Source: Diploptera punctata (taxonomy: Eukaryota > Arthropoda > Insecta > Blattodea > Blaberidae). From it: 64,000 nt of DNA. The stretch covers positions 2,389,501 through 2,453,500 of the forward strand of contig JASPKZ010002337.1 in NCBI GenBank assembly GCA_030220185.1. Reading direction: 5' to 3'. Of the stretch, positions 1,426-57,475 are shown in pieces; the stretch's first letter is position 1; each line of letters starts with the position of its first letter. Below the pieces are notes generated by a model. That model was not told the origin of the DNA. It saw only the letters and a list, made by a program, of their open reading frames with translations, and made no database searches. A program made the position numbers and the translations under genes.

Positions 1426-1548
1426 AAATAGGACAGTTTTAAGCTTTTATTTTTTGAAAAGAAAAATTAAGTGGTAAAGCTTAATATATTACAGTATGAT
1501 GTTTTTATTATTAATTTAACATTTCTCAATGAAAGATAAATTAAATTT

Positions 1549-1622
1549 GCCTCGGTAGCTCAGTTGGTAGAGCACTTGGCCCGGAAAGCCAAGGGTCCCG
1601 GGTTCGAGTCCCGGTCTAGGCG
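1549..1622 (+). tRNA. tRNA-like sequence in repeat unit (probably not a working tRNA)
   Basis: 74 nt with acceptor stem GCCTCGG/TCTAGGC (one mismatch), D arm GCTC...GAGC, and T arm with GGTTCGAGTCC (B box). The anticodon stem TTGGC/GCCAA encloses loop CCGGAAA, so the anticodon position reads GGA, but base 33 is C rather than the universal U. A standard tRNA-Ser would also have a long variable arm, which is absent. Best seen as an internal pol III promoter-bearing tRNA derivative. Confidence 0.6.
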
Positions 1623-1852
1623 AAAATTTTTCTCTTCAAATTTAATTTATCTTTCATTGAGAAATGTTAAATTAATATTAAAAACATCATTAGAAGCCTT
1701 ACTAGCTTATAAAGTAATGTTAAATTCCCAATAAATGTCTTCTTAACTAAGAAGCCACCATTTGCAAAGATAGAAGCAATGGTTTAAAAAGCATTTGGCG
1801 ATAGGGAATTACAACGTATATAAGAGAAAAATTTGCGTCTAGATCGTAACTT

Positions 1853-1926
1853 GCCTCGGTAGCTCAGTTGGTAGAGCACTTGGCCCGGAAAGCCAAGGGT
1901 CCCGGGTTCGAGTCCCGGTCTAGGCG
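1853..1926 (+). tRNA. tRNA-like sequence, second unit of array 1
   Basis: Identical in layout to the copy 304 bp upstream, with the same GGA anticodon position and C33. Its 5' flank has the normal unit lead (AAGAGAAAAATTTGCGTC...), unlike the first copy, which lacks it. Confidence 0.6.
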
Positions 1927-2025
1927 AAAATTTTTCTCTTCAAATTTAATATTACAGTATGTTATATTAAGCTTTACTGCTTAAAAATAATGTAAAATTA
2001 TTGTTAGAAATACTTTGAGTAGAAA

Positions 2026-7000: not shown

Positions 7001-10000
7001 CTGGTCTAATAATGATATGAGGTGAAGTGATACATTTTTTTTTTAAACTATACTACATTAAGATAAATTAAAATGTTTCATACCTCTCCTCATAATTAAT
7101 CTTCTAAGTAGATCGTGATTTCAGGGTCTTGGCAACCTCATCTTCAGTACACTTTTGCTGACTGATGTTATATCCGATTGACATATCATCAGTTGGCATA
7201 AGTGTACTGAGGATGGGGTTGCCAAGACCCTGAAATCACGATCTACTTAGAAGATTAATTATGAGGAGAGGTATGAAACATTTTAATTTATCTTAAATTG
7301 AATCTCATAGTGATTGATTCCTATAAAAGTTCACTCTACTATATTATATATATCTCTATTTTATAATGAAACGTTTTGTTTGCAGGGCTGCATTCAGTAT
7401 TTCTACATGGCAACATGGTTCTGGACTCTATGTTATGCAATAGATATGAAAAGGATGTTAAAAGCACAAAGATTACATAGACCAGATAATGAGCATGTAA
7501 AGTGCTATCATTTCACATCCTGGTCAAGTCCTGCAGTATTTACAATTATTGGACTTGGAATTCTCTACATTCCTGATGCTAAGTGAGTTTATAATTAAAA
7601 AGTATCATTAAACGAGAGCAAAGCATTTATATATTTGAGCAACATTTCTAACATTTTTTTAAAATACAGAGTCACAAAGAAAAGTTTAACAAGATAAATA
7701 TTCATTTTTTGTAGAAAGTTAGAATTTTAATGACATCTCATAATTGGATGGCTTTATGCATCAACCGGCTATGTGCAATTATGTAAGATTCGAGAAAAAT
7801 ATGTTTAAAGTTTAAGTCAATTTTCACTATTTATTGTAGTGCCAAACTAACAATACTGGATATTGCAGTTATTTTCCTTGTTTGACAGTTATGCATCAAC
7901 AATCTAAGAGTGGGAACATTTGGAGATTGACTGCATGATGCAAAATTTAGAATAACATTTATGAAGATCTGGTTTCATAGCCATTTGTCGCAAAACATAA
8001 AATCTCTAATAGGACTGATGGTTTTATTTTAGAAAGAAAAATTACGTTTGAACCGGGCATCGAACCCCAGACCTCTGACTCTGTACATCAATGCAGTAAC
8101 CGTTATGCCATTCGAACTTCCGATAGGAACATCAAATTTCTTTCTACTTATACAATTAATTTTCCTTACATCCGAAGGCCGATAGCCATCGCTATCAACA
8201 ATGCTTTCTGACGACTTCTTTTCAAAGTATTTTTTATTGAGAATCTAAACATAAATTTTTAAGCGGTTAAAGTTACATATTTTGATGTTATATTTTAAAT
8301 TAACATGTTCCAGAATTGGTTATAGTTTTATTATAGAAAGAAAAATTACATTTGAACCAGGTGTCGAACCCCGGACCTCTGACTCCGTACGGTAACCGTT
8401 ACACCATTAGAACTTCTGATAGGAATGTCAAATTTCTTTCTACTTATACAATTAATTCTCCTTTCATCTGAAAGCCGATAACCATCGCTATCAACAATGC
8501 CATCTGACTGATGGTGTTTACATTTTTCTTTAATAATAAGGCTATATTTAAAGATTTGGCACTAAAAGTGTGCATAAACTTACTTCATGAGCCATTGCAA
8601 CAGATGGCATCAAAATCTATTTTTTTTAAAATGGCGCTTAGCCGGTTGATGCATAACACCATCCAATTGTACATTTCTTGAAGACTATAGTTTCAAAATA
8701 CTACATATCATTATCAATTCCTTCTAACTGTTGAACAGATGGTTGGTGATCATAAGAAAATAAATAGATTAAAAAAAAGATAAATGAAAGAACTCTTTCA
8801 GACAGATAAAGAAATTAGTAAAAAATTGAAGAAATTTAAATACCATCCTTTGGTATACAATAGGTTTCAAAAAATTATCAGCAATATAACATTAAATTAG
8901 CACCGAAAAATGATTATAGCCCAAAAAGATTAATTAAAACTAACAAAAATTAAAAGATTGGTGAATGCAACAAATCAGGGATTTTCAAATTGATTGCAAA
9001 GATTGTGAAAAAATAAATATGCATAGGAAAAACAAAAAAGGCACTTCAAAACTAGATTCAAAGAACACCTTAGAAATGTTAAAAATGAAAAAATAGATAA
9101 ATCTGCAATAGCTGCACATGAATGGTCAGAAAACAGAATTGAAACAAAGGCCAAGTTATGATTTAAATTAAAATTCTTTATACCTTACCTCATATTCACT
9201 CTTCTAAAGAACTCACACTTTGGTAGAAAATTCACATCCACAAAAATAAAAGGAAAATCATGAAAATTGAAATTCCCGGAGAAAGAGATTTAATTTGTAA
9301 GTTCATCAGTCAGCCAACAGAGTGTGCAGAAATTAACCTACAGGATCTCCAACTGCCAATTCAACAGTTAGAAGGAATTAATAATACATAGTGTATCAAA
9401 ACTATAGTCTTAAAGAAATTTACAATGAGATGAGTAGTTAACTTTCTAAAATGAACCTCACAGTGTCACTTCCTTTAAATATTAAGATATCAAATTTGTA
9501 TGCTTAATAGGTTTCTAAGAAGCTAAATAACCAATTTTATTTATTATGAGTTAGTTATTTTGACTCACCTCATATTTTTTTGATACTCTGCAAACTATAG
9601 TTTAGTCGTATCTATGTGACATTGTTGATGCATTCTAACTGTTGTGTTTGCGGTTCTGATCCTGTAGATTGATTTCTATTCCCTCTGTTGGCTAACCAAT
9701 TTGATTTGGAAGTTGTTCATCGGTCAATCAACAGAGGGAGTAGAAATCAACCTACAGGATGACAACTGCAAACACAACAGTTAGAATGCATTGACAATGT
9801 CGCATAGATGCGACAAAACTACAGTCTATAGAATATAAAAAAAATATGAGGTGAGTTAAAATAACTAACTCATATTTGAAAAAAAATTTTCGCCTAGACC
9901 GAGACTCGAACCTGGGACCTTTGGCTTGCCAGGCCAAATGCTCTACCAACTGAGCTACCGAGGCGAGTTACGATCTAGATGCAAATTTTTCTCTTATATA

Positions 10001-13000
10001 CGTTGTAATTCCCTCTCACCAAATGCTTTTGAAACCATTTGCAAAGATAGAAACAATGGTTTCAAAAGCATTTGGTGAGAGGGAATTACAACGTATATAA
10101 GAGAAAAATTTGCGTCTAGATCGTAACTCGCCTCGGTAGCTCAGTTGGTAGAGCATTTGGCCCAACAAGCCAAAGGTCCCGGGTTCGAGTCTCGGTCTAG
10201 GCAAAAATTTTTCTCTTCAAATATAATTTATCTTTCATTGAGAAATGTTAAATTAATAATAAAAACATCATTAGAAGCCTTACTAGCTTTATAAAAGTAA
10301 TGTTAAATTCCCAATAAATGTCTTCTTAACTAAGAAGCCGCCATTTGCAAAGATAGAAACAATGGTTTCAAAAGCATTTGGTGAGAGGGAATTACAACGT
10401 ATATAAGAGAAAAATTTGCGTCTAGATCGTAACTCGCCTCGGTAGCTCAGTTGGTAGAGCATTTGGCCCGGCAAGCCAAAGGTCCCGGGTTCAAGTCTCG
10501 GTCTAGGCGGAAATTTTTCTCTTCAAATATAATTTATCTTTCATTGAGAAATGTTAAATTAATAATAAAAACATAACTAACTCATAATAATTAAAAGAAA
10601 CCTCATAGTGTTATTTTCTACAAATACTAAATTAAACAAATTTTATATTGATTACTCAGTAATTTCAAGAATTACTAATGCAATTGTTTAAACATTTCAG
10701 TTGTCACACACTTACAACAATGTCTGGAATTCTTTTCCACATCTTGCCCAACTACTTATTTACATTTCTACCCTTGCTCATCATTATGGTAGCCAACCCT
10801 ATCTTATACTGCCTCTCATCACGAGATGTGGAACACAATATTGGGGTGACAAATAGGCAGTATACTCAACGAGAACGCAATGTAGTAGATGCTATAAGAT
10901 GGAAATTTTCATTATTTACGATTGTATTCTACATTTGTTGGCTCCCTAATCTCATCTGTGGTGTGTTAATATGGACACTATGGCTTAATCTACCTCGTGT
11001 TATTATTATAACACTCTGGTACTCTATGGTAACTATTCATTTTATTATTTATTATTTAACACGTTTAAAATGTATAAATCACCTTCCTGTGCCCAATATT
11101 AAGTTTTGATTCTCTTCCTCCATTCATCTCTATCCTTCCAGTCACCATTCTACAGACTCCTGTCCTTCATCAAATTCATAATTCCTTCTACCCATGTATT
11201 CTTAGGTCTCCCTCTTCTTTACCTCCTAAATAGCAATCTATCTTCTATCATTTTTTTCATCATCATCATAGTACATTCACAAATTTAGGCCATTTGTTGA
11301 CCTGTTTCGGCCTCAAGAGAAACACCATCCAAAAATAATTTTTTTCACATGTCCAAATCATTGTAATTGTTTATTTCCCTCAAACTGTATAATTGTTTAG
11401 TTAAAGTTAATTTTTTTCTCGGATAATACTGTTTCTGGATATATCTGCTCCTGTGGTAATGATGAAAAACTGTTGAACACCTTATTTTAGACTATCCATC
11501 TCATAGATATAAGCGATATATTCTATATATTCATTTAACTGAACGTAATCCAATAATTGGCATTTTAAAATGGAAATGTTGTTACACAGCATTTAAAACA
11601 TTTATAAATGCTGTTTTCACCACATTATAATTAATTTGATTGCTACTTACTTTAAAAGTTTTAATTTAATTTGTTCTTATTTTGCTCATTTGTTATTTTT
11701 GTTTCATTTATATTTTGTAATTTAGTCCACCGCTGTGGTCTCAAGGTAGTGTGCTGCCTTGTCACGCAGCGGGTCCAGGTTTGATCCCTGGTCGGGACAG
11801 TTTTCTGGGTGAGGTTTTTATTGGGGTTTTCCTCACCTGTAAAACAAATGTCAGGAAAACTTTAAGGCCCAAATGGTCCCTGAAATCATATGGCCATCGC
11901 AATCATCATCATTCATATTCATCTTAGATTAAGCTTAGGATTAGGGACTCTCCTGGCACACCACTATCATCATCATCCCCATCATATCATCAGGGCAACA
12001 TAACTCTGCCTTCCAGGTGGCCCAACCTCAGAAGTGGGTTACAAGTACACCAAATGATAAATGACAATATATGAATTAAAGTGTTTAATATATCTATTAT
12101 CTTATGACTAGTCTTAAAGATGCCAAAATGGACCATGCACAACTTTTCCTATACAATACAAACATTTATTAGATATATTTGAAGAGAAAAATTTTCGCCT
12201 AGACCGGGACTCGAACCCGGGACCCTTGGCTTTCCGGGCCAAGTGCTCTACCAACTGAGCTACCGAGGCGAGTTACGATCTAGACGCAAATTTTTCTCTT
12301 ATGTACGTTGTAATTCCCTCGCGCCAAATGCTTGAAACCATAGCTTCTATCTTTGCAAATGGCGGCTTCTTAGTTAAGAAGACATTTATTGGGAATTTAA
12401 CACTACTTTATAGCCAGTAGGGCTTCTATTGACGATTTTATTATTAATTTAACACTTCTCATTGAAGGATAAATTATATTTGAAGAGAAAAATTTTCGCC
12501 TAGACCGGGACTCGAACCCGGGACCCTTGGCTTTCCGGGCCAAGTGCTCTACCAACTGAGCTACAAATATAATTTATCCTTCAATGAGAAGTGTTAAATT
12601 AATAATAAAATCGTCAATAGAAGCCCTACTGGCTATAAAGTAGTGTTAAATTCCCAATAAATGTCTTCTTAACTAAGAAGCCGCCATTTGCAAAGATAGA
12701 AGCTATGGTTTCAAGCATTTGGCGCGAGGGAATTACAACGTACATAAGAGAAAAATTTGCGTCTAGATCGTAACTCGCCTCGGTAGCTCAGTTGGTAGAG
12801 CACTTGGCCCGGAAAGCCAAGGGTCCCGGGTTCGAGTCCCGGTCTAGGCGAAAATTTTTCTCTTCAAATATAATTTATCCTTCAATGAGAAGTGTTAAAT
12901 TAATAATAAAATCGTCAATTTATTAGATATATTATTCCATCTTTAATATAAACAAAAACAATTATATTTAACATACTGTCCACTGCTGTGGTCTTGAGGT

Positions 13001-14404
13001 AGCGTGCTGCCTTGTCACGCAGTGGGCCCAGGTTCGATCCCCGGTCGGGACAGTTTTTCTGGGTGAGGTTTTTATTGGGGTTTTTCCTCACCTGTAAGAC
13101 AAGTGTCAGGAAAACTTTAAGGCCCAAACGGTCCCCAAAATGATATGGCAATCGCAATCATCATCATTCATATTCATCTAGATTAAGCTTAGGATTAGGG
13201 ACTCTCCTGGCGCACTACTATCATCATCATCATGACCCATCATATCATCGGGGCAATGTAATCCTGCCTTCCAGGCGCCCCAACCTCAGAAGTGGGTTAC
13301 AAGTATGCCATGCCAGAAGAGAACATGCCAGGAATGTCGAAAAGACAACCTGGGGCATTTGCAAAAAAAAAAAATATTTAACATACTAATCAACTAAATC
13401 ATATATAAAATTAATGCTAATTACAATAAATAATTTTAAAAATACAATAGAAAATAACATTAAGAGGTTTATTTAATAATTAAGATTTTTGGTCTGTATA
13501 TTCTTACCTCTTATCGTTGTTTTTATTGAACATATGTTCAACAAAAACAACCATAAGAGGTAAGAATAAACAGACCAAATATTTCAATTATTACAATAAA
13601 TAAGTTTGGTCTGCCAACAGCTTACCTCATATTTGGTTGTTTTCTTGTAAGACATGTTTAAAACAAAGCAACTTTGCTTCATCTTGAGTTGATGCAGACC
13701 CTCAGTCTGCAACAACTGAAGATGGAGATAGATGCTTTGAAACATGTCTTACAAGAAACAACCAAATATGAGGTAAGATGATGGCAGACCAAACTTATTA
13801 GGTAGATATTGTAATGATATTGTGAAAAGAAAAATTAATGTCTGAACCAGGAATTGAACCATGGACCTCTCCTTCTCTGTAGGAGTGTGCAGTCCACTAC
13901 ATTCTAGACCTGGCACAAACATTAACAATTGTTTCCACATATACAAATCTATAATTCTCGTTTTGTCCGCTACCAGGTAGGTGTCACTACCATCGCCAAT
14001 GGCCGGCTTCATTTAGAAGTATCTATGTTTGAGAACTTTACACCACCACTTTTGTAAGCATCAATGTTATTTAACATTCTCATAATGTCACTTCCTATTG
14101 TATGTTCAAATAAGTTAATTACAATTTTATAAAATATCAGCTTCTATTTGTCATTGCAAAAACATAATACTAATGTAATTATGTTGTGTTACCTTTCAGG
14201 CAGTGATGAATCCTCTGCAAGCTTTCTTAAATTGTTTTTTTATATAGAAAATGGACCAGTAGACAAGATATTATACTTCCAAGGTTGCCGTTCTTTCACC
14301 AGAAACATCGTGAACCAAGTCCATCCACTGGTGAGAATACACCACTGCTACAAACACAAGATTTCAACCCTGCAACAAGTATCAACGGGTATTCTTCAAA
14401 TTAA
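3938..14404 (+). CDS. GPR143-like G-protein-coupled receptor gene, 3' four exons
   Basis: Gene-level entry. Four exons at 3938-4034, 7386-7582, 10701-11028 and 14200-14404 all have AG/GT borders and compatible phases (0 after the first, 2 after the second, 0 after the third). Joined, they cover TM2/3 through TM7 and a tail of about 50 residues. Landmarks matching vertebrate GPR143 (OA1): an AFC motif before TM3, a TM3 ending FWTLCYAID, a Cys in the second outer loop, LPLLIIMVANPILY in TM5, ICWLPNLI in TM6, and NPLQAFLN in TM7. Known vertebrate members sit in melanosome and lysosome membranes and respond to L-DOPA; the role in this organism is unknown. TM1 and the start codon are not seen and probably lie left of the window. 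Two one-base frame breaks (first and last exon) could be assembly errors or decay. The introns are filled with transposons. Confidence 0.85.
4215..5290 (+). mobile_element. LINE 3' fragment, split by a SINE
   Basis: Plus-strand copy of the family best preserved at 19.4-20.0 kb: near 4300 it encodes a YGCETWALTLREET-like stretch, then FGPKRNEQTGEW; the second half from about 4950 encodes the GRPRMRWENN-like zone and ends near TGAACCTATGGGTTCGATAGTG, the family's 3' end. A SINE with a 14-bp target duplication splits it at 4631-4934. Full of stops. Confidence 0.7.
4631..4934 (-). mobile_element. tRNA-derived SINE family A, copy 1
   Basis: Flanked by a 14-bp direct repeat CCTCTAATGGCAGT (4617-4630 and 4935-4948), the target-site duplication in the host LINE. 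The minus strand starts with a tRNA-like head: A-box region GCGTAGTGGTTAAGGCACTG and B box GGTTCAAGTCC, then a body shared with copies at 19.1 and 33.4 kb, ending near GGGATCACTTTACTTTTT. Confidence 0.85.
5425..5830 (-). mobile_element. LINE fragment, C-terminal reverse-transcriptase region
   Basis: The minus strand encodes LYGSEIWTLNKQPIKRIEAA followed by KYLRFVAGYTLMDKK, the post-RT segment of an R1/jockey- or CR1-like LINE ORF2. It is similar to the stretch at the 3' end of the better copy at 31.9 kb (YGSEVWTL...AGYTLLDHK). Truncated at both ends. Confidence 0.7.
6258..7060. mobile_element. Penelope-like element remnant
   Basis: Begins TATAGGAAAAATCACTATGAGG, the terminal motif of this subfamily, followed by an arm with ACCTCACGTCATATCCAG and the minus-strand endonuclease tail (CCCAGGAATTTCAAAATTCATA at about 6470). 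A matching right arm (CTGAAACTGGTCTAATAATG...ATGAGGTGAAGTGATAC) lies at 6995-7035. The middle is scrambled. Confidence 0.55.
7108..7150 (-). ncRNA. Hammerhead-ribozyme-like motif (left arm)
   Basis: Minus strand: stem I GUA/UAC, core CUGAAGA (7141-7147), stem II around GGUUGCCAAGACC, GAAA, short stem III AUC-AC-GAU, then AUC as the expected cleavage triplet. The order fits a type I hammerhead. Positions 10.1/11.1 are U and U rather than the usual G-C pair. Hammerheads are established in terminal repeats of Penelope-like elements; activity here is inferred. Confidence 0.55.
7204..7246 (+). ncRNA. Hammerhead-ribozyme-like motif (right arm)
   Basis: Stem I GUA (7204-7206) with UAC (7244-7246); core CUGAGGA (7207-7213); stem II GGG...CCC; GAAA (7232-7235); stem III AUC-AC-GAU; cleavage triplet AUC ending at 7243. 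It mirrors the left-arm motif with one core difference (N7 G instead of A), which is allowed. Confidence 0.55.
7386..7582 (+). CDS. GPR143-like exon (TM3, inner loop 2, TM4)
   Basis: Acceptor TTTGCAG ends at 7385 and donor GTGAGT starts at 7583. The exon opens in phase 0 (GCIQYFYMATWFWTLCYAID) and covers TM3, the loop KRMLKAQRLHRPDNEH, and TM4 (SSPAVFTIIGLGILYI), ending PDA plus two bases of a split Asn codon. It corresponds to the human segment with FWWLFCYAVD and LLCVEGAAMLYYP. No frame defect. Confidence 0.9.
7746..8664. mobile_element. TIR transposon (MITE-like) inserted in the Penelope-like element
   Basis: Ends are about 27-bp imperfect inverted repeats: GGATGGCTTTATGCATCAAC at the left and the reverse complement of GTTGATGCATAACACCATCC at the right. 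AATT flanks both sides, and removing the insert restores the Penelope arm CTCATAATTGTACATTTC as seen uninterrupted at 59145. No transposase. It hosts a tRNA-cassette array. Confidence 0.7.
8023..8505 (-). mobile_element. Type II tRNA-cassette array (two copies)
   Basis: Two minus-strand copies about 300 bp apart (cores at about 8040-8130 and 8345-8420), each with a tRNA-like B box (GGTTCGATGCCCGGTTC in copy 1), an A-box-like TGGCATAACGGTTACTG and a flank AGAAAGAAAAATT. Bounded by a 10-bp direct repeat GACTGATGGT (8013-8022, 8506-8515), a likely target duplication inside the TIR transposon. Same plan as the 304-bp arrays but strongly diverged in sequence. Confidence 0.6.
8955..9390 (+). pseudogene. 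GIY-YIG endonuclease remnant of a Penelope-like element
   Basis: Across frame breaks the strand encodes SGIFKL, then YIGKTKKALQ (the YIG half of GIY-YIG), FKEHLRNVKN, then IDKSAIAAHEWSEN, and downstream a KFISQPTE-like stretch. This order and the AHxW...H spacing fit the C-terminal GIY-YIG endonuclease typical of Penelope-like retroelements, which nicks the target DNA. Stops (for example within YIG's upstream lead) make it non-functional. Confidence 0.65.
9891..9964 (-). tRNA. tRNA-like sequence (GGC anticodon position)
   Basis: Same 74-nt fold as array 1. The loop is CTGGCAA, so this copy keeps U33 and reads GGC (Ala) at the anticodon position. The acceptor lacks the G3:U70 pair that marks tRNA-Ala, so alanine identity is unlikely. 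Confidence 0.6.
10130..10203 (+). tRNA. tRNA-like sequence (loop CCAACAA)
   Basis: Same fold; anticodon position AAC with C33, and the 3' end mutated (GGCA for GGCG). A degenerate copy. Confidence 0.5.
10436..10509 (+). tRNA. tRNA-like sequence (loop CCGGCAA)
   Basis: Same fold; anticodon position GGC with C33, B box GGTTCAAGTCT. It lies 306 bp after the previous copy. Confidence 0.5.
10701..11028 (+). CDS. GPR143-like exon (outer loop 2, TM5, TM6, start of TM7)
   Basis: Acceptor ACATTTCAG ends at 10700; donor GTAACT starts at 11029. The exon's first base completes an Asn codon, then a Cys follows, matching the conserved second-outer-loop Cys. TM5 has LPLLIIMVANPILY, inner loop 3 has RQYTQRERNVVDAIRWKF (compare YTENERRM in human), and TM6 has FYICWLPNLICGVLIW. 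It ends TLWYSM in phase 0. No frame defect over 109 codons. Confidence 0.92.
11105..11345 (-). mobile_element. LINE 3'-end fragments in receptor intron
   Basis: 11108-11240 is a minus-strand copy of the 3' end also found at 44500-44640 (plus strand there). 11258-11335 repeats the CATCATCATAGTACATTCAC...CGGCCTCAAGAGAAACACC piece seen at 31690-31765. Confidence 0.65.
11728..12055 (+). mobile_element. tRNA-derived SINE family B, copy 1
   Basis: Starts CCACCGCTGTGGTCTCAAGG, with B box GGTTTGATCCC and a body CTGGGTGAGGTTTTTATTGG shared by copies at 12972, 45133 and 53425. It ends with CAT-rich and GCAACATAACTCTGCC-type tail sequence. Confidence 0.75.
12196..12269 (-). tRNA. tRNA-like sequence, array 3
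   Basis: Same as the array 1 copies: loop CCGGAAA (GGA position, C33), perfect T arm with GGTTCGAGTCC. Confidence 0.6.
12497..12564 (-). pseudogene. Truncated tRNA-like sequence at inversion point
   Basis: Minus-strand copy lacking its first six bases: it ends at GTAGCTCAG where the sequence switches directly to the inverted unit. The truncation marks the strand-switch point of the array. Confidence 0.6.
12777..12850 (+). tRNA. tRNA-like sequence, array 3 right arm
   Basis: Full 74-nt copy, sequence-identical in the anticodon arm to the left-arm copy. Confidence 0.6.
12972..13315 (+). mobile_element. tRNA-derived SINE family B, copy 2
   Basis: TCCACTGCTGTGGTCTTGAGG head, B box GGTTCGATCCC, same body as copy 1, CAT-rich 3' part, and the ending CCAACCTCAGAAGTGGGTTAC shared with copy 1. 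Confidence 0.75.
13475..13800. mobile_element. Two adjacent palindromic Penelope-like remnants
   Basis: 13483-13590 is an inverted repeat around TGAACATATGTTCA; 13605-13800 is a second one (TTTGGTCTGCCA...CATATTTGG mirrored at 13752-13798). Both use the ACCTCATAT/ATGAGGTAAG arm ends. The second contains CATCTTGAGTTGATG and a CTGAAGA core (13725-13731) without a clean downstream GAAAC arrangement. Confidence 0.55.
13815..14010 (-). repeat. Type II tRNA-cassette, single degenerate copy
   Basis: GAAAAGAAAAATTAATGTCTGAACC flank, B-box-like GGTTCAATTCCTGG on the minus strand, and the CACATATACAAATC tail that aligns with the cassettes at 8.0 and 50.7 kb. Confidence 0.45.
14200..14404 (+). CDS. GPR143-like terminal exon (TM7 and tail)
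   Basis: Acceptor ACCTTTCAG ends at 14199. Starts AVMNPLQAFLNCF in phase 0, matching the human NPAQGFLLSLAFYGW region. The literal frame hits TAG just after a run of seven T (14235-14241). One fewer T would continue through YRKWTSRQDIIL into a tail ending NPATSINGYSSN with TAA at 14402-14404. The tail contains ENTPLL, fitting the acidic dileucine sorting motif [DE]xxxL[LI]; dileucine sorting to lysosome-related organelles is known for GPR143. A homopolymer sequencing error is the simplest reading, but real loss is possible. Confidence 0.8.
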
Positions 14405-17224: not shown

Positions 17225-17735
17225 TATTTTAGGAAGTAATATTTTGAGGTTCTTTTAATTATATTATTTTGAGTCTGTTTATCTTACCTCAATATTAATG
17301 TTGATTTGTTCTTGAACATGTTTCGATTGGATATCAATTATCTTCAGCATATTGGCCAGAAACATGTTCAAGAACAAATCAACATTAACATTGAGGTAAG
17401 ATAACAAAACCAAAATAATATAATAATTAATGTAATTTAAAATCAGTTTCAATAAAAATTACAATGGGAAGTAACATTATGAGGTAAATTACAATTTACA
17501 TAAATGAATCAGATAATATTTTTATAATATTAATGTGAGTTTTTAACATCTTACCTTGTAATTTGGTTGTGTTCTTGACAACATGTTTCAATATTCATGC
17601 AAATTATCAACGTTCAGAAAATATGCACCCATATTGAAACATGATATAAAGAACACAACCAAATTATAAGATAAGATGTTCAACATTAATATTAAAAAGA
17701 ACCTCATAATGTCATTTCATATTGAAATTTATTAT
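17225..17735. mobile_element. Two palindromic Penelope-like remnants in tandem
   Basis: Element 1 arms 17270-17320 / 17365-17420 (CTTACCTCAATATTAATGTT mirrored); element 2 arms 17535-17605 / 17630-17690. Each ends with terminal-type sequence (GGAAGTAACATTATGAGG at 17467; AACCTCATAATGTCATTTC at 17700). Confidence 0.6.
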
Positions 17736-21965: not shown

Positions 21966-22086
21966 AAAAAATTCCGGGAAAATATACATGAGGTGGAGTG
22001 TACAAATCTTGTTCATTTAATGACTGTTAGAGAACAATTTATGAGGATTCTATGCCGCCATCATAAATTTAGAAAAAACACAGAAT

Positions 22087-22285
22087 TTACTGTTTTTATT
22101 ATTAATTTCATACATCTCAATGATGAATAAATCATATTTGAAGAGAAAAATTATACACTCAGACCGGGACTTGAACCCGGGACCCTTGGTTCTCTAGAAC
22201 AAGTGATCTACCACCTGAGGAAGTACCGATCTAAACGCAATTTTTTTTCTATATACGTTGTAATTCCTACCCACCAAATGCTATG
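22087..22285 (-). repeat. Diverged tRNA-unit, single copy
   Basis: Aligns with the 304-bp unit: TTTTTATTATTAATTTCATAC, AAGAGAAAAATTATACACTC, a tRNA-like core on the minus strand (B box GGTTCAAGTCC at about 22170), then TATATACGTTGTAATTCC. A 9-bp repeat CAGAATTTA may flank it (about 22079 and 22299). The D-arm region is damaged. Confidence 0.5.
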
Positions 22286-22572
22286 AAGCCAGAATTTATT
22301 CTTGCAGTATGTTAGTAATTACCTGAGATATATGTATACATTGATTTCCACCCCCCCCCCCAAAAAAAGTGAAAAATGCCTTAAAATAAAGTGAGAAGTT
22401 AAGCTCAAATTAACCTAAACTCAGCATATTTGCAATGTAAAATATGTATTAAGTCATTGCTCAGATAGCATAACCAACTTATCATTAAAACCCACTTGTT
22501 AGCAGGTGAATGCTAAACTAATCTGGTGTACTAACTATACCATTTTCTTACACTAACTTATTTAATATTTAA

Positions 22573-23930: not shown

Positions 23931-24141
23931 AACTACTTATTTTAGGAATTCTCACTATGAGGTATATGGGAAATAACATTGTGAGGTTCTTCAATTAATA
24001 GAATAAGTCGTGTCTTACCTCATGTTTTTCAAGCATGAGAACTGTAGTTTTCAAGAGGTATCCTTTCCATCTTCAGCCAATATGAAGATATAGATGAAAA
24101 TTCAGCAGTCATGATGTTCATATTTAAAGAGAAAAATTATA

Positions 24142-24215
24142 CGCTCAGACCAGGACTTGAACCCGGGACCCTTTGTTTTCTAGTCCAAGTGCTCTACCAT
24201 TTGAGCTACCTGAGC
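24142..24215 (-). tRNA. tRNA-like sequence in diverged unit
   Basis: Acceptor GCTCAGG, D arm GCTC...GAGC, T arm GGTTCAAGTCC. Loop CTAGAAA keeps U33 and reads AGA at the anticodon position, but the anticodon stem has mismatches. A different subfamily from arrays 1-4, yet the same unit plan (304-bp spacing to the next copy, AAGAGAAAAATT flank). Confidence 0.5.
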
Positions 24216-24443
24216 AAGTACCGATCTAAACGCAAATATTTCTCTATATACGTTGAAATTCCCGCCCCAAATGCTTTGAAGCCTTTGCTTCTATCTTTGC
24301 AAATGGCGGCTCCTATATTAAGAAGACATATTTGGGAATTATACATTACATTATAAATGCCAGTACGGCTATTTTCGATGTTTTTATTATTAATTTCATA
24401 CATCTCAATGATGGATAAATCATATTTAAAGAGAAAAATTATA

Positions 24444-24518
24444 CGCTCAGAACCGGGACTTGAACCCGGGACCCTTGGTTTTCTAGTCCAAGTGCTCTAC
24501 CATTTGAGCTACCTGAGC
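24444..24518 (-). tRNA. tRNA-like sequence, second diverged unit
   Basis: Nearly identical to the copy 303 bp to the left, with one extra base near the 3' acceptor side (GAACC for GACC). Both units share the tail GAAATTCCCGCCCCAAATGC. Confidence 0.5.
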
Positions 24519-24834
24519 AAGTACCGATCTAAACGCAAATCTTTCTCTATATACGTTGAAATTCCCGCCCCAAATGCTTTGAAGCCTTTGCTTCTATCTT
24601 TGCAAATGGCGGCTCCTATATTAAGAAGACATATTTGGGAATTATACATTACATTATAAATGCCAGTACGGCTATTTTCGATGTTTTTATTATTAATTTC
24701 ATACATCTCAATGATGGATGTTGCCTGAGGATGGGAGGGAAACCTCTTGAAAATTGCAGTTCCTGTGCTTGAAGAACACAAAGTATGAGGTAAGATACAA
24801 CTCATTTTATTAATAGCTGATATAACTTAGCCAA

Positions 24835-28380: not shown

Positions 28381-28416
28381 ACATACCTTTTCATTATATT
28401 TGAAGAGAAAAATTCT

Positions 28417-28490
28417 CGCCTAGACCGGGACTCGAACCCGGGACCCTTGGCTTTCCGGGCCAAGTGCTCTACCAACTGAGCTACCAAGGC
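28417..28490 (-). tRNA. tRNA-like sequence, array 4 unit 1
   Basis: 74 nt, loop CCGGAAA, acceptor GCCTTGG (C-to-T change relative to array 3). Confidence 0.6.
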
Positions 28491-28720
28491 GAGTTACGAT
28501 CTAGACGCAAATTTTTCTCTTATGTACGTAATTGTAATTCCCTCGCGCCAAATGCTTGAAACCATAGCTTCTATCTTTGCAAATGGCGGCTTCTTAGTTA
28601 AGAAGACATTTATTGGGAATTTAACACTACTTTATAGCCAGTAGGGCTTCTATTGACGATTTTATTATTAATTTAACACTTCTCATAGAAGGATAAATTA
28701 TATTTGAAGAGAAAAATTCT

Positions 28721-28794
28721 CGCCTAGACCGGGACTCGAACCCGGGACCCTTGGCTTTCCGGGCCAAGTGCTCTACCAACTGAGCTACCAAGGC
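28721..28794 (-). tRNA. tRNA-like sequence, array 4 unit 2
   Basis: Identical to unit 1, 304 bp downstream. Confidence 0.6.
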
Positions 28795-29024
28795 GAGTTA
28801 CGATCTAGACGCAAATTTTTCTCTTATGTACGTAATTGTAATTCCCTCGCGCCAAATGCTTGAAACCATAGCTTCTATCTTTGCAAATGGCGGCTTCTTA
28901 GTTAAGAAGACATTTATTGGGAATTTAACACTACTTTATAGCCAGTAGGGCTTCTATTGACGATTTTATTATTAATTTAACACTTCTCATAGAAGGATAA
29001 ATTATATTTGAAGAGAAAAATTCT

Positions 29025-29087
29025 CGCCTAGACCGGGACTCGAACCCGGGACCCTTGGCTTCCCGGGTTCGAGTCCCGGTCTAGGCG
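29025..29087. repeat. Palindromic fusion of two tRNA T-arm halves
   Basis: The 3' half of a minus tRNA-like copy runs directly into the 3' half of a plus copy at the centre of the large inverted repeat (CCTTGGCTTCCCGGGTTCG). The two acceptor 3' ends lie at the outer edges. It is the strand-switch point of the array. Confidence 0.75.
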
Positions 29088-29317
29088 AGAATTTTTCTCT
29101 TCAAATATAATTTATCCTTCTATGAGAAGTGTTAAATTAATAATAAAATCGTCAATAGAAGCCCTACTGGCTATAAAGTAGTGTTAAATTCCCAATAAAT
29201 GTCTTCTTAACTAAGAAGCCGCCATTTGCAAAGATAGAAGCTATGGTTTCAAGCATTTGGCGCGAGGGAATTACAATTACGTACATAAGAGAAAAATTTG
29301 CGTCTAGATCGTAACTC

Positions 29318-29391
29318 GCCTTGGTAGCTCAGTTGGTAGAGCACTTGGCCCGGAAAGCCAAGGGTCCCGGGTTCGAGTCCCGGTCTAGGCG
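29318..29391 (+). tRNA. tRNA-like sequence, array 4 right arm
   Basis: Full copy, same sequence as units 1 and 2, opposite strand. Confidence 0.6.
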
Positions 29392-29654
29392 AGAATTTTT
29401 CTCTTCAAATATAATTTATCCTTCTATGAGAAGTGTTAAATTAATAATAAAATCGTCAATACCTTTTCATTACTCAAATAAACAATCAAGTTGAATGAAA
29501 CAACATGGAAACAGAAGAACTTAAAAAAAATGTGCTTTACTAAATTCACATTTTAATTGAGGTAAAAAAATTGGGGTAATTTAAAAGTTTAAGTTACATC
29601 TTTGATCAGCAGAAAAAGGTATGTAAGTGAAAATAGTGAATTTTTCAGGAGAAA

Positions 29655-44690: not shown

Positions 44691-45132
44691 ATAAATCATA
44701 ACTGTATTAAGGACATGTGTGTGATGAAAACTTACATTATACCTTGAAATTCTTTCTGTATAAATACATAATCCACTTTTAATCACATTACAAAAATGAA
44801 ATTTATACTAGATGGATTTCAGTGTCTTGCATTTAAAAACAGCAAATAATTTCTTGGACTTTGTACCTCACAATGCTCCTCTGGGAGAAATTTCAAGAGA
44901 ATATTTGAATGTAAAGTTTTAAGGAAAAAATTTTGGGAGTAAAGAGAGACAAACAGACAGCTGAATGGAGAAGACTACATAACAGCAAGCTATATGACTT
45001 TATGCAAAACCGAATATAATAAGAACAGTTAAGTATTATGCATTACAGGGACTCTTTGTCATCCTAACTTCTCTCAAAAAAGTTAAATTGAATATATATA
45101 AAACTCTTATTCTTCCAATTATATAACATGAG

Positions 45133-45440
45133 TCCACCGCTGTGGTCTCAAGGTAGCATGCTGCCTTGTCATGCAGCAGGCCCAGGTTCGATCCCCGGTC
45201 AGGGCAGTTTTTCTGGGTGAGGTTTTTATCGGGATTTTTCCTCACCTGTAAGACAAATGTCAGGAAAACTTTCAGGCCCAAATGGTCCCCGAAATCATAT
45301 GGCCATCATCATCATCCTTCACCGGTGTGGAAAGCAACGGGAAGCTACCACACCTACACAATTCCCTAGTAAAACTGCAAGCATAGCATGAAAATGCTAT
45401 GATTGCTGTGAAGGACCTACCTTCAGGCAGAATTACTATG
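45133..45440 (+). mobile_element. SINE family B, copy 3
   Basis: CCACCGCTGTGGTCTCAAGG head, B box GGTTCGATCCC, the shared body, then a 3' part (CACCGGTGTGGAAAGCAACG) different from copies 1 and 2. Confidence 0.75.
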
Positions 45441-51650: not shown

Positions 51651-51935
51651 AATGCAAGAATTCAATGAATGAATGAGTTATATCTTACCTCATATTTTAT
51701 GTTTTTTAAACACGGGAACTGCAGTTTTCAAGAGGAGTACCTCTTATCTTCAGCCGACATTATGACTACTGGATTTTCGTTGGAATTTTCATCTGGTAAT
51801 CATAATGTTGGCTGAACATAAGAGGGACTTCCCTTGAAAACTGCAGTTCCTGTGTTTTAAAAAAAACAAAATATGAGGTAAGACAGATGCGACTCATTCA
51901 TTCATTGAATTAAGAACTTTATAATGTTATATCCG
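51645..51935. mobile_element. Palindromic Penelope-like element
   Basis: Arms 51662-51760 and 51800-51910 (CTTACCTCATATTTTATG mirrored by AAAATATGAGGTAAG). The right end AACTTTATAATGTTATATCC is a diverged terminus. The left arm has an intact hammerhead-like core; the right arm has CUGAACA, a core G8-to-C change. Confidence 0.7.
51713..51757 (-). ncRNA. Hammerhead-ribozyme-like motif
   Basis: Minus strand: CUGAAGA (51747-51753), stem II AGAGG-UACU-CCUCU, GAAA, palindromic stem III AACUGCAGUU, and UUC as cleavage triplet. Stem I is weak. Confidence 0.5.
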
Positions 51936-53424: not shown

Positions 53425-53575
53425 GATTGTGATGGCCATATGATGTTCGGGGACCGTTTTGGCCTGGAAAAACCCAATAAAAACCTCACCCAGCAAACTA
53501 TCCCGACTGGGGATCGAACCTGGGCCCGCTGCGTGACAAGGCAGCACACTACCTCGAGACCACAGCGGTGGACCC
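53425..53575 (-). mobile_element. SINE family B, truncated copy
   Basis: Minus strand: CCACCGCTGTGGTCTCGAGG head, B box GGTTCGATCCC, then the body to ACGGTCCCCGAACATCATAT. The 3' half is missing. Confidence 0.75.
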
Positions 53576-54047
53576 ATTAAATAAAATATTAAGTAATGTA
53601 ATGTTGTCTTAATTAAATCACCATTCTTAAACTGAGAAATGAAAGCATATAACAAACACGAATACACAATGTAGACTGGATTTGGTTTAACAACCGTTAA
53701 CTTACATTTCATCATGTTATTGGATACAGCAATGATTGTACACGTGATATAAGCTCAATGGAATATTTCAAAAGAAGAAAATTGAAAAATATGGGTGTGC
53801 ATCACACAAAGATGTGTAATTTACTTATTTCTATCGTAGTAATAGCTTTAGCTTCTCAATATTAATTTAATGACTATTTGTATGTATAGCTATAATATGG
53901 GGTAGACTATATTTTTTAAATAAATTTTGGTAGTCCTTACATACCATTATTCACCCTTGAAACATTCCAATGCCAGCTGTTGTTATTACAAAACCCAACA
54001 TCCTCTCTGTCACTCAGTGTGGGAAAAAAAGCAACTGCTCATAAATA

Positions 54048-54749
54048 CAGAGTGGAGCATTAGTTAACCAAAAAATCAGATAGGTTGAAAGTGGGGTTTG
54101 AATATGGGACCTTCAGAACATAATCTCAATCGCTACTGCTTGAGGTAATTTGCTAACTAGGGAATACATCTTGTTCACTATCATGTCTATTAAACAACTT
54201 CAAATATATTGTAAATAATAATTATATTTTAGATATACCATGTAATAATTTTGTTTATAGTAATTTAGATGTAAGAATAATTTGTGTTTTTTTTTATCCT
54301 GGTTGAGTGATAAACATGTCACTAAGGCCTTAACTCTGCCAGGTAAAATAAAACAACTGCACTATGGATTGAACATCCCTGCATTTTTTGATGACCATAT
54401 TCAAGAGTGGATTGGAAGGCGTGGTAAAATTGATTGGCCACCTAGATCACCAGATGTCATGCCATGTGACTTTTCAATGTGGGGAATTTTGAAGGACAAA
54501 GTTTTCAGTACAAAACCACTAAACCTGCAACATCTACAGGATTTAACAGGAATTTGAAAACACTTTTGGTAATAATGGGAAATTGTGTGATAACATCTGC
54601 AAATCAGTGTTTAAAAAAATGTCATAAATGCTTAAACAACAAATGAGGTTACTTTGAAAAATTTTTGTAATTGTTTTTTGTATAGATGTTGTAGGCTACA
54701 GAAAATAATATATTTGCATTTTCGGTTAACTGACTTATGCTGCACCCTG
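54048..54749 (+). mobile_element. Tc1/mariner-superfamily element, internally deleted
   Basis: TA-flanked; the right end TCGGTTAACTGACTTATGC...CCTG mirrors the decayed left end CAGAGTGGAGCATTAGTTAACC. Only the C-terminal transposase part remains. Its left interior is shared with the MITE at 20.3 kb. Confidence 0.7.
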
Positions 54750-55250
54750 TATACTAGCATTTTTAGTGATAGTGAGATCAAGAGCAACTCAAGTTACATT
54801 GTTTCAAATAAAAAGATAAGTCGCTAAAAGGAATAACAACCGATAAAACCACAAGAATGAAAGCTTTCACAAAATTAATTAAGTGAAAAACAAACAGTTA
54901 ATCCCATTAAAAAAAATTAAATAACTTAATGAAACCATTTCTAATACAGTAAAACTTGCTCAAAGCAGAATTGCATGGGACCAATTTTTTTTCCGCATTA
55001 GACAAAATTCCGCATTATAAAAAAACTAAAATTTATTAACAATCTAAGATAACAGAGTACTGCACATTTTTTTACGTACCTTGGATTAATTGTAGTTCCG
55101 CTGCTGCTTTGAAAAGTGAATATAGTATGTATGAGAGACTTCAACGGTAATGTGCGAAAAAACAGTCCCGTTTCGTCAGCGTTAAAAATGTCTCTTACAC
55201 TCATATCCAAAAATTAAAGTATGCAGTTTTGCTCACTAACTACATTTTTT
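54231..55250. repeat. Tandem duplication, copy 1
   Basis: 1,020-bp unit directly repeated at 55251-56262. The copies appear identical apart from two short indels (CTGCTGCTTTG versus CTGCTGTTG; CCAAAAATT versus CCAAAATT). The unit runs from inside the Tc1-like element into the Tigger element, so it is unrelated to transposon boundaries. Confidence 0.9.
54282..54557 (+). pseudogene. Tc1/mariner-superfamily transposase C-terminus
   Basis: 91-codon open frame with GRRGKIDWPPRSPDVMPCDF and SMWGILKDKVFSTKPLN. The WPPRSPD...CDF block holds the third catalytic Asp of the DDE/D nuclease in this superfamily. The first two Asp are missing. The upstream DNA-binding part is also lacking. Confidence 0.75.
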
Positions 55251-56262
55251 AGATATACCATGTAATAATTTTGTTTATAGTAATTTAGATGTAAGAATAA
55301 TTTGTGTTTTTTTTTATCCTGGTTGAGTGATAAACATGTCACTAAGGCCTTAACTCTGCCAGGTAAAATAAAACAACTGCACTATGGATTGAACATCCCT
55401 GCATTTTTTGATGACCATATTCAAGAGTGGATTGGAAGGCGTGGTAAAATTGATTGGCCACCTAGATCACCAGATGTCATGCCATGTGACTTTTCAATGT
55501 GGGGAATTTTGAAGGACAAAGTTTTCAGTACAAAACCACTAAACCTGCAACATCTACAGGATTTAACAGGAATTTGAAAACACTTTTGGTAATAATGGGA
55601 AATTGTGTGATAACATCTGCAAATCAGTGTTTAAAAAAATGTCATAAATGCTTAAACAACAAATGAGGTTACTTTGAAAAATTTTTGTAATTGTTTTTTG
55701 TATAGATGTTGTAGGCTACAGAAAATAATATATTTGCATTTTCGGTTAACTGACTTATGCTGCACCCTGTATACTAGCATTTTTAGTGATAGTGAGATCA
55801 AGAGCAACTCAAGTTACATTGTTTCAAATAAAAAGATAAGTCGCTAAAAGGAATAACAACCGATAAAACCACAAGAATGAAAGCTTTCACAAAATTAATT
55901 AAGTGAAAAACAAACAGTTAATCCCATTAAAAAAAATTAAATAACTTAATGAAACCATTTCTAATACAGTAAAACTTGCTCAAAGCAGAATTGCATGGGA
56001 CCAATTTTTTTTCCGCATTAGACAAAATTCCGCATTATAAAAAAACTAAAATTTATTAACAATCTAAGATAACAGAGTACTGCACATTTTTTTACGTACC
56101 TTGGATTAATTGTAGTTCCGCTGCTGTTGAAAAGTGAATATAGTATGTATGAGAGACTTCAACGGTAATGTGCGAAAAAACAGTCCCGTTTCGTCAGCGT
56201 TAAAAATGTCTCTTACACTCATATCCAAAATTAAAGTATGCAGTTTTGCTCACTAACTACAT
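55251..56262. repeat. Tandem duplication, copy 2
   Basis: Second copy of the unit described at 54231. Its right end continues uninterrupted into the rest of the Tigger element (CATCCACATCC...), so copy 2 is probably the original context for the Tigger side and copy 1 for the Tc1-like side. Confidence 0.9.
55302..55577 (+). pseudogene. Duplicate of the Tc1/mariner transposase C-terminus
   Basis: Identical at protein level to the frame at 54282-54557, 1,020 bp downstream. Created by the tandem duplication rather than by a second insertion. Confidence 0.8.
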
Positions 56263-56877
56263 TTTCATCCACATCCTTTGATTCCTCTCAAATTTCATTC
56301 CACACTACATTGTGTCGTCTTTTAAAACTGTCCAGCCAACCTGAAGATGCCTTGAAATCGTTATTCCCTAGGGATTTAGCAAAAGCTGGAGCTTGACTTT
56401 GGAGCGTCGGTCCGAAAATTTGGAGATTTATCTTCAATCACTTTCACTTTTTCATTTAATGAGAATGATACATAAGTTTTAGCCATTTTTATTCCATAAA
56501 TTCAGAACGTTACCTGTGAAAGATCGGTCTCAGAACTTTAACTAATTTAAGATTTTACAGTGCAATGGTTATTTGTAAGACAGGTACAGTATCTGTATTT
56601 CACATAACAGGTGTGCAGTGAGGCTGAAAGAAAATTTCGTGTACAGGTCTACTTCACCCGGTGACAAGAATCATTCCTTATCTTTTTTTTTGGCCTAACG
56701 GGAATTCAATGAAGTGAAAACTAATTTTTTTCTCCCTCTGTCTTTACGCTTTATAATTTTTTTCATGAATTGTGTAGAAATATTGTTCCGTTTCCGTGCT
56801 GGACACATTCCGTTTTATACAAAATAAATACACGTAAAATTACTACTATTTCGCCGGGACCAATAAATTTGTTCACA

Positions 56878-57261: not shown

Positions 57262-57475
57262 TCTTTATCCCATTAATGAATGAGTTGGAGAAAATGTTTT
57301 AACATCTCACCTCATAAAGTTGCGTGTCTTCACAATTTGACAGAAGATGGAAGTAATACTATAATTTTGAAATCGGTATTGTGAAGACACGCAACTTTAT
57401 GAGGTGAGATGTTAAAACATTTTCTCCAACTCATTCATTAATGTAAATACCTCATAGTGTTTCCTCCCACTGTAA
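57262..57475. mobile_element. Palindromic Penelope-like element
   Basis: Arms 57264-57330 and 57375-57442 are perfect or nearly perfect reverse complements (TTAACATCTCACCTCATAAAG), right end ACCTCATAGTGTTTCCTCCC. Loop of about 45 nt. Close to the inner element at 14791. Confidence 0.75.

Follow-up and report, generated by a model that had tools for sequence, protein, structure and literature searches.

Penelope-like elements (PLEs) of the Penelope/Poseidon type, which carry a reverse transcriptase (RT) together with GIY-YIG, are described as forming tandem copies next to which a pLTR lies in inverted orientation; one of the inverted repeats may carry a tail, and target duplications occur (PMC3846280). 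Published PLEs carry a hammerhead. The protein of an anole PLE cuts and extends both strands, starting at two sites that bound the tail; in vitro, the start is reported not to be homologous to the cut DNA, and the start sites are alike for both strands (PMC11167929). How PLEs insert is debated, with self-priming on one side and priming from both target strands on the other. Animal retrozymes are made up of units of about 300 bp that bear a hammerhead and are repeated in tandem, and they may depend on PLEs (PMC7229834, PMC7761336, PMC8969392). A tRNA-like part is found in the LTRs of Helenus, a TRIM with a PBS, a PPT and duplications of 4-5 bp (PMC10886601). Short nonautonomous Penelope elements are mentioned in butterflies, in passages that do not speak of a tRNA-bearing multimer structure (PMC6685494), and among the papers listed by searches of openly available full text, no title or displayed abstract presents a tRNA-bearing multimer of PLE type.

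The repeat studied here, a 304-bp unit bearing a tRNA-like sequence, forms arrays in the genome of Diploptera punctata. These arrays very probably represent a non-autonomous retroelement moved by Penelope-type machinery, with a multimeric or circular 304-nt RNA as the template and two-strand priming at two fixed sites; the PLE protein as the mover, the order of the steps and the making of the RNA are elements that we infer. The unit being short and non-coding, a whole array is readable, and the arrays record the outcome of insertion cleanly. Features shared with PLEs are tandem or partial tandem copies, head-to-head inverted ends, a short tail on one side, variable target duplications (here 8-17 bp) and two adjacent RNA start sites (PMC3846280, PMC11167929). 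Published PLEs also cut and extend both target strands (PMC11167929), as is proposed here from array structure. Unlike PLEs, the unit is devoid of an open frame, bears a tRNA and has no hammerhead that could be found, and its start sites are mixed in every scored head-to-head array, whereas the papers call the tail optional (PMC3846280). It departs from the anole element (PMC11167929) in the overlap between target and start site and in the strict use of one site of each kind.

Metazoan non-LTR retrozymes resemble the unit in having non-coding units of ~300 bp, low GC content, dimers to multimers, duplications of >4 bp and a suggested reliance on PLEs (PMC7229834, PMC8969392); compared from DNA alone, the unit differs from them in bearing a tRNA instead of a detectable type I hammerhead. 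The tRNA-derived SINEs are likewise non-coding, with a tRNA-like part and target duplications, but the unit forms multimers, has two alternative start sites and head-to-head blocks, and lacks a fixed A-rich or simple 3' tail. Multimers that bear tRNAs would arise by a route other than that of classical SINEs, and tRNA and SINE annotation may misread them. Helenus is a non-autonomous retroelement as well, with a tRNA-like sequence inside a short repeat (PMC10886601). The unit arrays, in contrast, have head-to-head blocks, no LTR plan and duplications of 12-17 bp in 28 of 29 cases; a Helenus-like LTR element was rejected, as duplication length and plan are both wrong.

Arrays of the unit in the window

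The window, by which we mean the whole 64,000-nucleotide stretch analysed, comprises positions 2389501-2453500 of its contig in a 3.12-Gb assembly and has 33% GC. The unit, U, was cut from 28416-28719 on the minus strand. Positions along its 304 bp are written u1-u304, u1 coming next after the tRNA, and all sites are compared in these coordinates. BLAST of U against the window returned arrays A, B, C and D, array E and the truncated copy F (Table 1). The window also contains RT fragments, transposase fragments and a GPR143-like exon with a Pfam Ocular_alb match. Two stretches, 7314-7586 (recognised by eye) and 10663-11109 (by Pfam Ocular_alb), are probable exons of a GPR143-like receptor gene, which contains or adjoins arrays B and C. 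A further family of dispersed repeats, whose start looks tRNA-like, occurs at 11725-12047, 12978-13305, 45116-45321 and 53466-53577 and is probably an ordinary SINE. A direct tandem duplication of 1.02 kb, 99.6% identical, occupies 54224-56265.

Table 1. Unit-bearing features of the window and their flanking direct repeats
Feature	Position	Strand	Remarks
Array D, minus block	28397..29060	-	2.18 units; outer end at site 1 (about u19)
Array D, plus block	29061..29458	+	1.31 units; outer end at site 2 (about u66)
Array D, target duplication, left copy	28383..28396		14 bp
Array D, target duplication, right copy	29459..29472		14 bp
tRNA-like sequence, array D	28416..28491	-	ARAGORN; Rfam 55.5 bits
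tRNA-like sequence, array D	28720..28795	-	ARAGORN; Rfam 55.5 bits
tRNA-like sequence, array D	29317..29392	+	ARAGORN; Rfam 55.5 bits
Hairpin between start sites, one copy in array D	29108..29139	+	predicted; folds, pair counts
Array A	1499..1948		reversed relative to D, site 2 end on left; duplications 1486-1498 / 1949-1961 (13 bp)
Array B	9875..10572		inside palindromic repeat; duplications 9861-9874 / 10573-10586 (14 bp)
Array C	12180..12917		duplications 12164-12179 / 12918-12933 (16 bp)
Array E	24119..24716	-	about two units, one orientation, ~17% diverged from D; inside palindromic repeat; 6-bp repeat 24113-24118 / 24717-24722
Copy F	22090..22289	-	<1 unit, 3' end near site 2; 9-bp repeat 22081-22089 / 22290-22298

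The tRNA-like sequence is called by ARAGORN, and its complete copies in A-D score 50.9-55.5 bits against the Rfam tRNA model (gathering score 29). A hairpin between the two start sites is predicted in the folds of all five units tried. Among nine sequences, changes on both sides occur in 5 of the 22 pairs of the tRNA fold (shuffles were as high for pairs in 11/500 and for cells in 0/500); among six sequences, the tail hairpin has two-sided changes in 3 of 12 pairs (57/500 shuffles reach 3 pairs and 0/500 reach 5 cells), and both tests overstate certainty because the compared sequences are related. Frames in the unit copies are short, no longer than 100 aa in E and of 59-88 aa where they cross the edges of D, with no long frame of the unit's own, and a frame with RT and GIY-YIG, a feature of PLE membership, is absent from the unit. 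A protein search using one unit frame returned no candidate sharing three words, and pattern scans of viral contig and genome contig collections gave 0 matches. Rfam models revealed no hammerhead or other known ribozyme in the unit, and the CTGANGA core is absent inside arrays A-E. Matches to mir-607 and similar Rfam families at 29011-29101 are explained by the inverted junction of D. Directly 3' of the tRNA, TTTTT is found at u4-8 in 13/13 aligned window copies. We take this to be a likely pol III terminator, which raises the question of how a multimeric RNA arises. The leader before the tRNA (u199-230) is an imperfect inverted copy, at 78-84%, of the 3' part of the tRNA plus trailer (u275-u14), and this likeness is possibly the relic of an old inverted junction.

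Read with the longer end at right, each of arrays A-D consists of a minus block from about u14-21, a single inversion, and a plus block to about u64-68. In a gapless register, one minus and one plus block account for 738/738 bases of C, 1062/1062 of D and 449/450 of A. The register failed for B (372/698 bases) because of an indel in the unit, and the two-block plan of this array was taken from BLAST and junction reading. The inversion point varies among arrays, and in A the two blocks measure 0.17 and 1.31 units. The outer repeats were equalled or beaten at random pairs of places in 1 (A), 2 (B), 0 (C), 0 (D), 11 (F) and 261 (E) of 1500 trials each, so that the 6-bp repeat of E is not significant alone. 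In the case of B and E, related palindromic repeats elsewhere in the window are uninterrupted at the join and hold the duplicated bases once.

A sequence-only reading of this window had listed four arrays sharing a tRNA-bearing unit of about 304 bp, with differing numbers and orientations of units and a direct repeat bounding each array as a whole. ARAGORN and Rfam (50.9-55.5 bits), BLAST, and repeats of 13, 14, 16 and 14 bp in A, B, C and D, beyond chance, bear these points out, although array E had been missed. The comparison with empty sites that it proposed agrees with insertion for B and E; for A, C, D and F, an uninterrupted relative of the insertion site was sought in the window and none was found.

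Among positions covered at least twice per array, 1/139 vary in A, 11/232 in B, 1/304 in C, 0/304 in D and 3/295 in E, while full units from different arrays differ by 1.0-17.9%. The near-identity of units within an array would fit repeated copying of one sequence, with a circle and a young homogeneous tandem source serving alike.

Outer ends and junctions in the genome-wide sample

A genome search with the unit found at least 39 distinct places besides the window among the matches listed (300 matches; 40 of 1192 candidates scored), and all 39 were fetched. Because these loci are the places among the matches listed, D-like arrays are over-represented in the sample, arrays having been picked by likeness to D or E and not at random. 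The 39 loci hold 56 unit stretches of at least 60 bp, comprising 29 head-to-head arrays with a duplication of at least 8 bp, 7 one-orientation copies with a duplication, and 20 stretches without one; the last include the complex loci L026, L034 and L040, and L042, mixed by inspection, was left uncounted. In all 29 head-to-head arrays, the outer ends fall at u14-22 on one side and at u59-68 on the opposite side, with duplications of 12-17 bp in 28 and of 8 bp in L011. The E subfamily (~17% diverged) was sampled at 20 loci, giving 20 stretches: 4 counted, one with its start cut (L079, uncounted), and 15 without a duplication of at least 8 bp, in most cases because the array reaches the edge of the fetched piece. 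The 4 complete head-to-head arrays of this subfamily all end at u22-24 and u64-67 and have duplications of 11-13 bp. Outer ends visible by BLAST alone in its uncounted stretches lie at u24 (L067), u19 (L076), u31 (L077), u22 (L078), u33 and u71 (L081) and u27 (L084).

Taken together with A-D, 37/37 scored head-to-head arrays (4 + 29 + 4, duplication at least 8 bp) have one end at u14-24 (site 1) and the other at u59-68 (site 2). Two site-1 or two site-2 ends occur in 0/37, and the sites are 45-50 nt apart in the unit. About 35 of the 37 are independent, as L010/L011 and L065/L074 each look like one insertion on two contigs. The 7 one-orientation copies with a duplication (two of the repeats being only 8 bp) have their outer 3' end at site 1 in 6 cases and at site 2 in 1, with the other end elsewhere; copy F is a further site-2 case and array E a site-1 case. 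Single or partial-unit copies of about 0.6-1.1 units exist (L013, L023, L024 and L042), and the longest array has 13.5 units (L009). Three one-orientation arrays, E, L043 and L045, are near a whole number of units, with both ends near site 1. The duplications look AT-rich, in a region that is itself 67% AT. An assembly artefact is an unlikely source of the arrays, because no duplication of the flanks is seen and a separate target duplication accompanies most arrays; long palindromic arrays may still be mis-sized.

The sample corrects the sequence-only reading in part. Start and end points had been held to differ within the unit and are instead two fixed sites in 37/37 scored arrays, and single-unit insertions, said to be absent, are represented by F, L013, L023, L024 and L042, at about or below one unit. 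In the genome search that it had proposed, the multimers it described recur but the outer ends are fixed. Its view of the multimer as inserted in one event, by a machinery making target duplications of about 14 bp, is supported, with duplications of about 13 bp. Its statement that this is no ordinary SINE also holds, given the two end sites and the want of an A-rich or simple 3' tail.

Twin priming by LINEs also yields head-to-head blocks and duplications of similar length, and it combines one fixed start with one free start. A tRNA-derived SINE moved by a LINE, with the inversions made by twin priming on a multimeric transcript, would be in keeping with the good tRNA scores and with a LINE-type RT fragment inside the window. 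We consider this origin improbable, since both outer starts are fixed in all 37 scored arrays and no A-rich or simple tail marks the array ends. A second alternative places the origin at the DNA level, in circular DNA, rolling-circle products or a DNA transposon with long inverted repeats, which would suit multimers of one monomer sequence and the MITE-looking palindromic repeats of the window. Capture at breaks is not known to make duplications of 12-17 bp, and this length is unusual for a DNA transposase. With duplications of this length, and with outer ends that represent two phases of one strand rather than terminal inverted repeats, a DNA-level origin is most improbable.

At 8/8 ends of A-D, target and unit overlap by 2-6 bases; the sum of 25 compares with a mean of 3.65 for random 14-mers of the window, 0/100000 being as high, with ambiguous bases scored as overlap in data and control alike. 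At the inversions, 33 junctions were read and 30 kept by an anchor rule. The overlap is 0-6 bases in 23 of these and 13 bases in 1, and the remaining 6 contain 1-12 unassigned bases. The cDNA 5' ends at the inversions are scattered round the unit, yet 9/60 fall within 4 nt of u1, the 3' edge of the tRNA (1.78 expected, binomial P 7e-5), in an interval picked after inspecting the end positions and with one of the nine ends (L013, 13-base overlap) ambiguous. A cDNA stop at the 5' edge of the tRNA (u229) was rejected, with 3 seen against 2.17 expected, which is not significant. The excess at u1 could reflect either RNA 5' ends made by tRNA 3' processing or RT stopping there, and it hints at tRNA processing. 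Several tRNAs remain uncut within the arrays; the template thus often retained them, which speaks against a simple processing story.

These junctions also bear on self-priming, which has been proposed for rotifer PLEs with palindromes at inverted junctions (PMC3846280). Here, PLE machinery would move the element, and the inverted block would come from a cDNA that folds back and copies itself, or from an antisense template, as the near-palindromic form of the arrays might suggest. Under fold-back, nothing would explain why the second outer end always lies at the other start site or why the blocks of A are so unequal. The junctions, moreover, link different unit positions with few shared bases (0-6 in 23/30), and we regard fold-back as unlikely to hold. 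Two-strand priming with one site per strand fits better than fold-back, because both start sites are used once each in every scored head-to-head array.

Proposed route of insertion and resident PLEs

Under priming from both target strands by Penelope-type machinery, the template would be RNA of the 304-nt unit in the tRNA sense, either multimeric or circular. Both target strands would be cut, about 13 bp apart, by a PLE reverse transcriptase/endonuclease, and the two free 3' ends would prime cDNA at two fixed places of the RNA, about u14-24 and u59-68, flanking the conserved hairpin, aided at both by 2-6 nt of pairing. Both cDNAs would extend toward the RNA 5' end, through anything from part of a unit to many units, and would then join in the middle, usually at 0-6 shared bases, to leave a head-to-head multimer, a one-sided 'tail' and a target duplication. 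Circular or rolling copying is possible.

Judged by its structure, the proposal that the element works like a PLE appears well supported, and the PLE plan (PMC3846280, PMC11167929) matches where the sequence-only reading knew of no described family. The unit is not an autonomous PLE member, because it has no frame, no hammerhead and no proven shared ends; the most fitting class for it is that of non-autonomous elements of PLE type, here carrying a tRNA module. Neither the strict pairing of two start sites nor the excess of stops at the tRNA edge is covered by the descriptions found. As a compact RNA substrate for biochemistry, the unit has two fixed ends that make the copying mechanism testable. 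More tentatively, and with the odds against it, the tRNA might stand in for the hammerhead that PLEs and retrozymes have: host tRNA enzymes, namely RNase Z acting at the 3' edge and perhaps RNase P, would trim a multimeric or circular RNA to give the template, while the PLE enzyme would act as an asymmetric pair with each target strand tied to its own start site. If true, a Penelope-type retroelement would have taken over a host RNA-processing signal as its processing module. Counting against the PLE reading are the failure to find, among the resident PLE fragments checked, a sequence that shares the start region of the unit, the lack of a hammerhead, the departures from the in vitro behaviour of the anole PLE (PMC11167929), the choice of arrays by likeness to D or E, and the uncounted, unanchored ends at u27-33 (L077, L081 and L084).

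GIY-YIG domains of PLE type are plentiful in the genome. A search for them gave 45024 first-look candidates, among which 150/150 scored pass the cut-off, and RT and GIY-YIG lie in one frame at L048 and L049. In a downstream check of 12 GIY-YIG loci, the unit was absent at 9, formed separate head-to-head arrays nearby at L054 and L056, and at L048 appeared as an ambiguous pair of fragments before and after the frame. Five upstream pieces of PLE loci contain unit fragments in L061 and L062 and none in L060, L063 and L064. The L048 pair had prompted the idea that resident PLEs have this unit as their end repeat. The idea was not borne out: for L048 no duplication of >8 bp was found, and with 9/12 loci and 3/5 upstream pieces free of it, the unit does not in general serve these PLEs as an end repeat. 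Among the resident PLE pieces that were fetched, most of them 3' parts, none showed a hammerhead. One resident copy, L062/L053, has a 13-bp duplication (uncontrolled for chance) and a 177-bp inverted end repeat with one side about 38 nt longer, and it appears to show the same plan as the unit arrays.

A similar lopsidedness is found in the window itself, among MITE-like palindromic repeats of 130-360 bp (for instance 17258-17424, 51659-51911 and 57271-57443). Of 17 such palindromes, 9 extend 32-45 bp past the inverted repeat at one end, against -16 to +1 at the opposite end, with a direct repeat that is sometimes common by chance (up to 9/60 controls); 4 have no repeat and 4 others misfit. Several share TATGAGGTRAG / CCTCATAGTGTTA-type motifs with the sequence that follows PLE frames. 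Because these motifs are common to both, the palindromes can be read as PLE derivatives, and the 9 lopsided ones with a direct repeat may be such derivatives rather than DNA transposons.
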